Below, in pieces: positions 10,972 to 46,684 of a DNA stretch of 46,684 bases. The DNA lies in the NCBI GenBank assembly GCA_945874455.1, contig CAMCHO010000013.1, positions 1 through 46,684 of the forward strand, written 5' to 3'. Both the position numbers and the translations under genes were made by a program. This DNA comes from Opitutus sp. GAS368. GTDB lineage: Bacteria > Verrucomicrobiota > Verrucomicrobiia > Opitutales > Opitutaceae. The notes under the pieces are model-generated. The model did not search any database. It was not told the DNA's origin and saw only the letters and a list, made by a program, of their open reading frames with translations. The number at the start of each line of letters is the position of its first letter. Positions within the stretch are counted from its first letter, which is position 1.

Positions 10972-11532
10972 GTGACTCCCGAGCTACCCTCCGACCCTTC
11001 GCCAGCCCCCGTCGACCGCTGGTTCAGCGACCACGTGCTTCCCCACGAGCCGATGCTCCGGGCTTGGTTGCTCAGCCGGTTTCCGCACGGCATCGAGCTC
11101 GACGATCTCGTGCAGGAGGCCTACGCCCGCGTGCTCCGCGCCCGCGCCGCTGGATCCGCCATGCGCTCACCCAAAGCCTTTTTTTTCGCCACAGCCCGCA
11201 ATCTCGCGATCGATCTGCTGCGGCACCGCCAAGTTTCCGGCGAAGCTACCTTAGTGTCTTTCGAGTCCTTGGACGTCTTGGATGAGAGCGACGGCATTCC
11301 CGAGACCGTCGACCGCCACGAAAAACTCGAACGCTTGACCATCGCCATCCAGTCCCTGCCCGCACGCTGCCGCGAGGTCATGACCTTGCGTAAGGTCTAC
11401 GGTCTGTCCCAAAAGGAGATCGCCGCTCGCCTCGGTATTTCCGCGTGCACGGTCTCCGCGCAACTCACCATCGGTGTGCGTAAGTGCACGGAATCGTTCG
11501 CCCGCGATCGCCGCGAAGCGGGTCTCACATGA
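10972..11532 (+). CDS. ECF RNA polymerase sigma factor, module 1
   Basis: A 186-residue FecI-like ECF sigma factor. Region 2 spans about residues 24-90 with D-D-L-V-Q-E-A-Y. Region 4 near the C-terminus carries L-P-A-R-C-R-E-V-M-T-L-R and the helix-turn-helix L-S-Q-K-E-I-A-A-R-L-G-I-S. I chose the GTG at 10972: it gives normal family length and sits in a context like that of the GTG-started sigma at 44864 (CACCAAAC upstream). An ATG at 10789 would add 61 residues without conservation. Its stop overlaps the FecR start as ATGA. It should direct transcription of the receptor/enzyme operon when released by FecR. Confidence 0.9.
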   Translation: MTPELPSDPSPAPVDRWFSDHVLPHEPMLRAWLLSRFPHGIELDDLVQEAYARVLRARAAGSAMRSPKAFFFATARNLAIDLLRHRQVSGEATLVSFESLDVLDESDGIPETVDRHEKLERLTIAIQSLPARCREVMTLRKVYGLSQKEIAARLGISACTVSAQLTIGVRKCTESFARDRREAGLT

Positions 11533-22015: not shown

Positions 22016-22555
22016 ATGCCCCCAGCCGATCCTGCAATTGCCCGGTGGTATGCCGACGAGCTGCAACCGCACGAAGCGCCACTGCGGGCCTGGCTGGCAA
22101 GTCGCTTCCCCAATCTCGCCGACGCGGATGACATCGTACAGGAATCGGTGATGCGGGTGCTGAGGGCGCGGGGCAGCGGGCCGATTCTATCGCCCAAGTC
22201 TCTGCTTTTCGTCGCCGCCCGCAACCTCGCCCTCAACCGTTTGCGCGACGCGCAGCGCGAACCGGTGCAATCTTTAGCGGATTTCGACCTCGGCGGTGTC
22301 TTAGATGAGCATGAGGACATCCGTGAAACCGTCGCCCGTCTGGAGGAATTTCGCGTGCTGATCGAAGCCATCCAGTCGCTGCCGAAGCGCTGCCGGCAGG
22401 TCATGACCCTGCGGCGGATTTACGGTCTTTCGCAGAAAGAAGTGGCGGCCCAACTCGGCATATCGGAACACACCGTCGAGGCTCAGAGCACCATCGGCCT
22501 CGACAAATGCGCGGAATTTTTCCGGGCGCGTGGGCACGTCTCCCGTCGATCATGA
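22016..22555 (+). CDS. ECF RNA polymerase sigma factor, module 2
   Basis: A 179-residue FecI-like ECF sigma factor. Region 2 contains D-A-D-D-I-V-Q-E-S-V and region 4 L-P-K-R-C-R-Q-V-M-T-L-R with helix-turn-helix L-S-Q-K-E-V-A-A-Q-L-G-I-S. The Met at 22016 gives the usual length; an in-frame ATG at 21812 would add 68 non-conserved residues. Its stop overlaps the FecR start as ATGA. It closely resembles the module 1 sigma in region 4, so target promoters may overlap. It should drive the receptor and enzymes that follow. Confidence 0.9.
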   Translation: MPPADPAIARWYADELQPHEAPLRAWLASRFPNLADADDIVQESVMRVLRARGSGPILSPKSLLFVAARNLALNRLRDAQREPVQSLADFDLGGVLDEHEDIRETVARLEEFRVLIEAIQSLPKRCRQVMTLRRIYGLSQKEVAAQLGISEHTVEAQSTIGLDKCAEFFRARGHVSRRS

Positions 22556-44748: not shown

Positions 44749-44941
44749 CAGCGGGTAGCTACGATCGCACCCGAGCGGGTCAACCCGCGGCACCACCCGC
44801 GCCCAATTTCACTCGCGAAATTTCCGGGCTTGCGACCGTCGCCGCTGCACCAAACGTCCGGCAGTGATTTCGCCCCAATCCGACCAGACGCAGTGGTTCG
44901 CCACCGAGCTCGCGCCCCACGAGCCCGCCCTCCGCGCCTAT
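44341..44941. repeat. Right copy of ~600-bp direct duplication
   Basis: The counterpart of 6893-7493 in the same orientation, 37.4 kb away. Homology stops abruptly at 44341 inside the cytochrome gene. On the other side it continues into the sigma gene, where the left copy has suffered a deletion. Sampled 60-bp lines differ at 3 to 5 positions. Confidence 0.9.
44775..44788. promoter_or_regulatory. GCGGGT-CA-ACCCGC palindrome, right copy
   Basis: Identical to 7328-7341 and in the same place between the divergent cytochrome and sigma genes. Its preservation in both copies fits a promoter or operator role but could simply reflect recent duplication. The inner 12 bases GGGTCAACCCGC also occur in the left end of the MITE-like element at 35527-35538. 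Confidence 0.35.
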
Positions 44942-45388
44942 CTCCACGGTCTCGTCAACCCGTCCGACATCGACGACCTCGTGCAGGAAACCTACGCCCG
45001 CCTCCTTCGCGCTCATGAACGCGGCCCGGTCGAGCATCCGCGCGGCCTCCTCTTCGCCACCGCCCGGAACGCCGCCCGCGACCTCTTCCGCCGCCGCACC
45101 ACCGCCAACACAATTCCGATAACGGATTTCGTCGCCTCGCGCGTCTTCGACTCCGCACCCAACGCCGCCGAGACCGCCAGTCGCCAGCAAGAGACCGACC
45201 TGCTCGCGACGGCGATCGCGGAACTGCCGCCGCGCTGCCGTGAAATCCTCGTCCTCCACAAATTTGAAAACCTCTCCCACCGTGAAATTGCCGAAAAACT
45301 CGGCATCTCCGTGCACACGGTCGAAGCGCAACTCACGAAAGCTCTCCACCGCTGCGAAGAATTTTTCGCGCGCCACGGCCTGCCATGA
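44864..45388 (+). CDS. ECF RNA polymerase sigma factor, module 3
   Basis: A 174-residue FecI-like ECF sigma factor starting with GTG. Region 2 has D-I-D-D-L-V-Q-E-T-Y-A-R-L. Region 4 has L-P-P-R-C-R-E-I-L-V-L-H and helix-turn-helix L-S-H-R-E-I-A-E-K-L-G-I-S-V-H-T-V. Complete, unlike its paralogue relic at 7417. Its stop overlaps an ATG of a small repeat-filled frame, and the FecR gene starts about 210 bp further on. In the other two modules FecR overlaps sigma directly, so the repeat appears to have been inserted between them. Confidence 0.92.
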   Translation: MISPQSDQTQWFATELAPHEPALRAYLHGLVNPSDIDDLVQETYARLLRAHERGPVEHPRGLLFATARNAARDLFRRRTTANTIPITDFVASRVFDSAPNAAETASRQQETDLLATAIAELPPRCREILVLHKFENLSHREIAEKLGISVHTVEAQLTKALHRCEEFFARHGLP

Positions 45389-45600
45389 AACCTGTGTCCC
45401 GTAGCGGCGAGCGCCAGCAAGCCGACGCGCCTACCCCTAGCGCCTACTCTCCCCATCGTAGCGGCGAGCGCCAGCAAGCCGACGCGCCTCCCCTTAGCGC
45501 CTGCTCTCCCCATCGTAGCGGCGAGCGCCAGCAAGCCGATGGCTTCATCCGCTCGGCGCTCCGCCTCCAGGCGGTCCAGCATCCGCCTCTCGCCCAATGA
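45385..45600 (+). CDS. Small repeat-derived ORF between sigma and FecR
   Basis: A 71-codon frame coupled at both ends by ATGA overlaps: its ATG sits in the sigma stop and its TGA in the FecR start. It contains two and a half copies of a peptide R-S-G-E-R-Q-Q-A-D-A-P from a 57-bp DNA tandem repeat. It has no recognisable domain, signal or membrane segment. Most likely an accidental frame created by repeat insertion in multiples of three, which may still keep translation flowing from sigma to FecR. Confidence 0.3.
   Translation: MKPVSRSGERQQADAPTPSAYSPHRSGERQQADAPPLSACSPHRSGERQQADGFIRSALRLQAVQHPPLAQ
45401..45539. repeat. 57-bp tandem repeat, about 2.4 copies
   Basis: Units start at 45401, 45458 and 45515 (period exactly 57). 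Each opens with GTAGCGGCGAGCGCCAGCAA; the third unit is cut after 25 bp. The copies differ by only a few bases. The period is a multiple of three, so the frame stays open. The core GTAGCGGCGAGCG resembles G+C-rich REP-like intergenic words. There are no unique spacers, so it is not a CRISPR array. Confidence 0.85.
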
Positions 45601-46684
45601 GCGCCGCTTTCTCCCCTCCCGAAGACTCCGCCCTCCGCGCGACCGCCGCGCAGTGGACAATCCGTCGCGACCGCGGCCTCTCTGCGTCCGAGTCGATCGA
45701 CTACGAACTCTGGCTCGCTGCCGATCCACGTCACGCCGCCGCCATGCAACGCTCCGCCGCCGCGTGGTCTCGCCTTGATCGCATTCCGGAAAGCGCCGCC
45801 GCGCCCGTCCTCGCCACCGCCACGCGCCGCCGCTCCTTCTGGCGTCGCTCCCTCGCCTTCGCGCCCCTCGCCACTGCCGCCGCCGTCGCGCTCGTCGCAC
45901 TCCACCTCACCCGCCCGTCCGCCACCACTCCCTCCGCTTCCGCCGCACTCGCGCCCGCCTCCGCTTCCGCTTCCGCCGCTACGTCGCCCTCCTCCGCCCC
46001 GCGCCAGCTCACGCTCTCCGACGGCACCGTCGTCCAACTCAACACCGGCGGCGAAGTCCTCGAGCAATTCACCCCGGCCGAGCGCCGCGTACTTCTCTCA
46101 CACGGCGAAGCGCATTTCGCCGTCACCAAAAACCCCGCACGCCCCTTCGTCGTTCAAGCGGGCAACGTCGACGTCCGCGCCGTCGGCACCGCGTTTAATA
46201 TCCACCTCAAGGCCGCCACGGTCGACGTCCTCGTTACCGAGGGCGTCGTCCAACTCAACCGCCCGTCGGCGCAGGTTCCCGTCGTCACCATCGCCGCGCC
46301 CCCCGACAACCTTCCGCGCCTCAACGCCAACGAACGCGCCGTCGTCTCCCTCGCGCCCACGTCGCCCACCTCACCCGCATCGCTCGCGCCCGCCATCGTC
46401 GTGACCACCGCAACCCCCGACGACATCGCCCGCACTCTCGCCTGGCAGGCCCCGCTGCTGCGCCTCGGCGGCTCGACGCTCGCTGAGCTCGTCCTCGAAT
46501 TCCAACGCCGTTCCGGCCAGCGCGTCATCCTCGCCGATCCTGCCCTCGCGTCGCTCCGCGTCGGCGGCCGTTTCCGCGCCGACGACCTTGCGGGCTTCAC
46601 CCACCTTCTCGCCACCACCCTCGATCTCGAAGTCGAACATACGGCCGACGACACGCTGGTGCTGCGAAAAAAATCTTCCACTCC
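45597..46684 (+). CDS. FecR-family anti-sigma factor, module 3 (3' end outside window)
   Basis: At least 362 codons, open to the window end. The sigma-binding domain has A-A-Q-W-T-I-R-R-D-R-G-L and W-L-A-A-D-P-R-H. One transmembrane helix lies at about residues 85-104. A long Ala/Ser/Pro linker follows. The FecR core has L-S-D-G-T-V-V-Q-L-N-T-G and R-A-V-G-T-A-F-N-I. The DUF4974-like module (L-A-E-L-V-L-E-F-Q-R-R-S-G) is near the end. By analogy with modules 1 and 2 only a few residues are missing and an STN TonB receptor should follow. The ATG lies in the TGA of the repeat-filled frame. Confidence 0.9.
   Translation, partial: MSAAFSPPEDSALRATAAQWTIRRDRGLSASESIDYELWLAADPRHAAAMQRSAAAWSRLDRIPESAAAPVLATATRRRSFWRRSLAFAPLATAAAVALVALHLTRPSATTPSASAALAPASASASAATSPSSAPRQLTLSDGTVVQLNTGGEVLEQFTPAERRVLLSHGEAHFAVTKNPARPFVVQAGNVDVRAVGTAFNIHLKAATVDVLVTEGVVQLNRPSAQVPVVTIAAPPDNLPRLNANERAVVSLAPTSPTSPASLAPAIVVTTATPDDIARTLAWQAPLLRLGGSTLAELVLEFQRRSGQRVILADPALASLRVGGRFRADDLAGFTHLLATTLDLEVEHTADDTLVLRKKSST

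Follow-up and report, generated by a model that had tools for sequence, protein, structure and literature searches.

The DNA analysed here, henceforth "the window", is the whole of one contig (G000:C13; 46,684 bases) of the 5.07-Mb assembly of Opitutus sp. GAS368, which consists of 333 contigs and is 95.5% complete. At the far end of the window a gene for an ECF sigma factor and a fecR gene are separated by a repeat-bearing open frame, referred to below as the bridge, and the features of this junction are the following:

44864..45388, + strand: ECF sigma factor gene, 174 aa, GTG start, with Pfam domains Sigma70_r2 and Sigma70_r4_2
45385..45600, + strand: bridge, a 71-codon open frame from sigma to fecR, with no Pfam match and neutral codon usage
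45400..45539, + strand: tandem array of period 57, 2.5 copies, 96% matches
45401..45425, + strand: GTAG REP core, copy 1, starting 12 nt past the sigma stop
45458..45482, + strand: GTAG REP core, copy 2
45515..45539, + strand: GTAG REP core, copy 3
45540..45596, + strand: non-repeated rest of the spacer, reaching the fecR start, of equal length in the relative G003
45597..46682, + strand: fecR (DUF4880 and FecR domains), truncated where the contig stops at 46684

The sigma ORF ends with the letters CCATGA, its TGA stop sitting within ATGA, and the start context of fecR at 45597 is CAATGA; the bridge is thereby joined to its neighbors by two stop/start overlaps of 4 nt, at 45385–45388 (sigma/bridge) and at 45597–45600 (bridge/fecR), and the sigma–fecR spacer amounts to 208 nt. 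In modules 1 and 2 of the window sigma and FecR overlap directly via ATGA, at 11529–11532 and 22552–22555, respectively. An earlier note on this DNA had described the 57-bp tandem repeat between sigma and FecR, the ATGA joints on both flanks of the repeat-bearing frame and the direct overlaps of modules 1 and 2, and all three descriptions are borne out, with the qualification that the coordinates assigned there to the repeat (45385–45600) are those of the open frame.

Identity and dispersal of the repeat

The 57-bp unit belongs to a GTAG-tagged REP, a short hairpin repeat of the REP/RAYT mobile world, whose core consensus is GTAGCGGCGAGCGCCAGC[A/G]AGCCG. A search of the genome of origin with the 25-nt core, allowing up to 3 mismatches, yielded 96 sites (39 forward and 57 reverse) as opposed to none for the reversed control, so that the array lies far beyond what chance would produce. 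The repeat is not peculiar to the sigma–FecR junction, the element being a REP dispersed over the genome. GTAG is found at the 5′ foot of nearly all core matches, being occasionally replaced by GGAG, GCAG or GTGG, and the sites come as singles, as inverted pairs 31–41 nt apart and as direct arrays. Inverted pairs of the BIME/REPIN type are present at L018, L031, L043 and L045, and in the direct arrays the spacing is constant, or nearly so, at each locus and varies from locus to locus, the values recorded at loci other than the present one being 28, 31/32, 35, 37/38, 39, 41, 42, 45, 47/48, 51, 65 and 69/70. At L018 (G000:C50) two REP clusters, at 640–772 and 2035–2201, have matching flanks and are separated by ~1.3 kb, an arrangement suggestive of a local duplication.

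The hairpin nature of the repeat is supported by the covariation of its stem, as determined with copies collected by means of an anchor while the outer stem columns were left free (183 occurrences, 68 of them distinct). Among the 68 distinct copies, column pair 6–23 is occupied by G-C (23), C-G (18), T-G (11) and T-A (5), with 11 unpaired, and column pair 7–22 by G-C (36), G-T (23) and A-T (5), with 4 unpaired; depending on the column pair, 57–66 of the 68 are paired. The 57 paired copies at 6–23 were equalled by 0 of 5000 shuffles, a figure that overstates significance since the copies are related and that should not be taken as a probability. The stem contains GA/RA mismatches and the predicted fold of the hairpin is no more stable than that of shuffled sequences, a point counted against an explanation by REP insertion. 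Of 200 genomes from the family, 32 have a degenerate core (GTAGCNGCGAGCGCCAGCNAG), including all 9 of the genus.

Transposase genes and the repeat

A RAYT specific for this REP was sought around the four Y1_Tnp (PF01797) genes of the genome of origin and at 56 further loci. The REP is absent from the fetched flanks of all four genes, two of which carry other repeat families, and this lack of a linked RAYT within the flanks fetched in the genome of origin was counted against an explanation by REP insertion. In other genera two RAYT loci, L118 and L120, are located near this REP; L120 was considered as its REPtron and rejected because the N-terminus of the L120 protein bears a different repeat. 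A C114-type RAYT (at least 60% identity) is present in 16 of the 200 family genomes, and 11 of these 16 are REP-positive versus 21 of the 184 genomes without it (Fisher 8e-7, with kinship ignored and a threshold set post hoc); the C114-type RAYT is thus a candidate partner of this REP, and no stronger designation is intended.

Other repeat families were also seen to be associated with transposase genes. At L049:2594–3517 (G000:C166) a RAYT-like Y1_Tnp has both its own termini encoded by a different repeat (SAGVPAGI..KADEDVGAP), the gene looking as if the repeats on its flanks had become part of it, and the same applies, with another repeat, to the L120 protein. At L012 (G000:C29) a further Y1_Tnp gene is surrounded by a third repeat family, with tandem/inverted repeats of 46 bp and 107 bp.

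The sigma–fecR junction in related genomes

Eighteen sigma orthologues with at least 69% identity were placed, each contig being counted once, which entailed merging contig twins (L051 with the window, L052 with L137, L053 with L141 and others); among the 24 loci, L138 and L143 stand in for their respective twins L217 and L226, L052 stops short of fecR, and the rearranged L233 (twin of L145) was dropped from the junction counts. The REP is present at the junction in 3 of the 18 orthologues, namely in the window, with three cores, and in G003 (Opitutaceae bacterium F1-60-MAGs102) and G008 (Opitutae bacterium RE-9nov16-252), with two cores each, the distance from the sigma stop to the first REP being 12 nt in every case. 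Since the sequences of the relatives are metagenome assemblies, these unit numbers are provisional. The spacers of the window and of G003 differ by exactly one 57-bp unit, the bridge having 71 codons in the former and 52 in the latter, with ATGA at either end in both. As anticipated in the earlier note, the difference in copy number leaves the frame open, with three cores as well as with two, in all three species; both ATGA joints are retained in G003, whereas the contig of G008 stops before fecR.

Of 17 readable junctions ten are short, nine having gaps of 0–3 nt and one a 4-nt overlap, and seven have long spacers, measuring 208 nt in the window, 151 nt in G003, 137 nt in L139, 210 nt in L140, 64 nt in L149, 68 nt in L144 and 26 nt in L223. 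FecR starts with ATGA in nearly every relative, even where there is no spacer at all, so that the 3′ joint of the bridge comes nearly free. The L139 spacer (L139:3517–3653) contains an unrelated long palindrome with an RNA fold of −68.9 kcal/mol over 137 nt. The L149 spacer contains a GTAG hairpin that was considered as a second dispersed REP and rejected, this being present in a single copy in its genome.

REP arrays inside and outside genes

Frame and strand were compared for 30 single-orientation arrays from 53 sources (the window, L013–L047 and L308–L324, the last group having been selected for closely spaced REP sites), genes being called by a custom codon-score caller trained on 22 ORFs of the window, which also supplied the gene calls behind the overlaps of modules 1 and 2, the codon scores and the counts of co-directional REP junctions given below. 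The spacing is divisible by 3 in 8 of 8 arrays inside predicted genes versus 7 of 22 outside (Fisher 0.002; 0.0007 when the window's own array is omitted), a contrast inflated by the circumstance that an array breaking the frame splits the ORF and is therefore not called as lying inside a gene. The earlier note had held that the repeat being a common dispersed element with no frame preference would speak against its proposal; half of this applies, the repeat being a common dispersed REP with 96 sites, and its in-gene arrays keep the frame.

Throughout the 53 sources, all 19 single-orientation REP insertions in predicted genes are on the coding strand, and the antisense core, as read from its sequence, has no stop in any of three frames; the in-gene inserts are translated as RSGERQQAD or VAASASKP. 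Individual cases include a DEAD-box/DUF3516 helicase (L037:515–3523; G000:C241) with seven in-frame tandem 42-bp REP units (PRSGERQQADPSGL repeats), i.e., seven units of 14 residues, which separate Helicase_C from DUF3516; an ABC ATPase that has two ABC stretches; and a 2-oxoacid dehydrogenase E2, in which the REP insert falls in the linker between the E3-binding and catalytic domains.

Origin and possible role of the bridge

In the most likely reading, which we regard as probable, a REP insertion changed its length in place and the open bridge is a tolerated by-product. According to this scheme, a GTAG REP would have been inserted between sigma and fecR, at a junction that was probably short, before at least three species of the genus diverged, and the array would then have grown or shrunk at this site by entire 57-bp units, slippage or unequal exchange being the presumed mechanism; FecR would either initiate independently, as almost all genes of the window must do given the scarcity of Shine–Dalgarno motifs, or be fed in part by ribosomes relayed through the bridge. 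Three circumstances account for the open frame of the bridge: two of the three forward frames of the REP core are free of stops, a period divisible by 3 preserves any open frame, and ATGA happens to be read at both flanking junctions. What counts against the by-product reading is that none of the seven long junctions, which represent six origins, has a stop ahead of the FecR ATGA in the frame that ends there, and that in the comparison with G003 the frame survived 17–19 substitutions in addition to the 57-bp copy difference, which is more than neutrality needs.

The alternative placed next attributes the open bridge to selection for a relay of ribosomes that restart from sigma to bridge to fecR; this is a tentative proposal and on balance we doubt it. 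Its premise is that the REP pushed fecR 151–208 nt away from sigma, too far for direct termination–reinitiation. The premise relies on the report that direct reinitiation is nearly lost at ~20 nt in E. coli and H. volcanii (PMC10666635), so that with a spacer of 151–208 nt fecR would be expected to lose its coupling to sigma, barring a restart of ribosomes on the bridge. In its favor are also the ATGA at both ends in the window and in G003, with a one-unit copy difference that keeps the frame, and the existence of REP-free bridges, one of 23 codons with ATGA at both ends in L149 and one of 43 codons with an ATGA joint onto fecR in L139. None of the five long-spacer lineages that were tested has a stop in the bridging frame, nor has the 26-nt spacer of L223, and for the five lineages the chances of an open frame in dinucleotide-shuffled spacers are 0.15 (window) or 0.29 (G003), 0.64, 0.52, 0.83 and 0.93; their product, ~0.04 with the window's spacer or ~0.08 with that of G003, is weak and was noticed post hoc. 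Against the relay, starts within ATGA are the rule in this DNA, being seen at 17 of 27 other predicted starts of the window, so that the double ATGA weighs less than it appears to; a bridge start beside the sigma stop is lacking in L140 and L144, L223 has no bridge start at all, and of the 18 co-directional junctions with this REP the window's alone has an ATGA-to-ATGA bridge, L318 having a loose one, a count that also speaks for the by-product reading. Moreover, independent initiation of FecR is plausible, a Shine–Dalgarno-like motif preceding just one of the 29 starts predicted in the window, and for the same reason the missing motif before fecR was rejected as proof of coupling. As judged from the DNA, coupling of the two genes and tuning of the sigma:FecR ratio by the repeat, as envisaged in the earlier note, are no more than possible, and under the relay hypothesis the number of units might shift the FecR:sigma ratio.

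An effect at the level of RNA, whereby REP hairpins would damp sigma translation or alter the decay of the sigma or fecR part of the mRNA, comes third and appears rather unlikely. It would be in keeping with the position of the first REP, 12 nt past the sigma stop in the window, G003 and G008, and with what is reported on REPs of E. coli lying no more than 15 nt from a stop codon (PMC12306157). On the other hand, the predicted hairpin is no stabler than shuffles, the distance of the other co-directional REPs to the stop upstream of them ranges from −4 to 228 nt, without any general stop-proximal placement, and ribosomes restarting at ATGA would unfold the hairpin. These three explanations are not fully exclusive of each other. 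It is highly improbable that a small protein with a function of its own, such as a third partner of sigma and FecR, is made from the bridge: the frame is open in three species, but there is no Pfam match, the codon score per codon is 0.020 as opposed to 0.262 for sigma and 0.224 for fecR, and the changes with respect to G003 are 14–16 nonsynonymous to 3 synonymous, compared with 34 to 31 in sigma. The bridge thus displays neither purifying selection nor gene-like codon usage in these comparisons, its peptide being unconstrained, and it is missing from the orthologues with short junctions; as a gene it was rejected.

A more general proposition would have REP arrays serve as frame-preserving relay spacers of variable length, with selection keeping a content-free ATGA-to-ATGA ORF once a hairpin element has split a coupled pair of sigma and anti-sigma, unit changes acting as heritable steps in the dose of anti-sigma, and the same fix being reached with other inserts in L139 and L149; taken as a whole, this would seem improbable.

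Relation to known systems and significance

GTAG REPs have been described, in a 2013 study (PMC3733652), as abundant and partly intragenic in Opitutus terrae, and both the clusters of GTAG REPs and their presence inside ORFs are already on record there. The present family resembles those of that study in its GTAG tag, its short imperfect stem and the alternative complementary bases of the latter, as well as in forming dimers and clusters, in its many copies and in the occurrence of some of these within ORFs in a verrucomicrobium, a likeness drawn from the description of those families. It differs from what is described there in the prominent direct tandem arrays with locus-specific periods, one of which lies at a sigma–fecR junction. 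The same source sets aside REPs in hypothetical proteins of <120 aa as plausibly spurious, and the window's bridge fits this class. According to the same paper, the RPE palindromes of Rickettsia are likewise palindromic repeats tolerated in-frame as protein inserts, whereas they constitute other families and have no GTAG tag.

Pseudomonas fluorescens, too, is known to have tandem REP arrays of an ordered kind, and the REPINs of its strain SBW25 (PMC3116915) share with the present family the occurrence of singlets and inverted pairs as well as of ordered tandem arrays in which the flanks are repeated along; the SBW25 clusters, however, adjoin RAYT genes, a linkage that was not found here. The overlaps of 4 nt between co-directional partners, as in modules 1 and 2, are like those of the ATGA termination–reinitiation pairs (PMC6728339, PMC10666635), from which the present junction departs in that its two partners are separated by an ORF that is made of repeats and lacks protein constraint. 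A narrowly worded literature search on REPs and operon translational coupling returned no published report of a REP-built relay ORF, and none was found joining FecR, ECF sigma and anti-sigma in Verrucomicrobi.

If nothing beyond a REP insertion is involved, the junction represents another case of a known mobile repeat, and would still document a unit-wise copy difference between species at a fixed junction and an in-frame rule for arrays within genes. If, on the other hand, the relay were true, it would show how bacteria keep the stoichiometry of two partners once a repeat has split their operon, and would offer a natural copy-number series for measuring reinitiation through a nonsense ORF.
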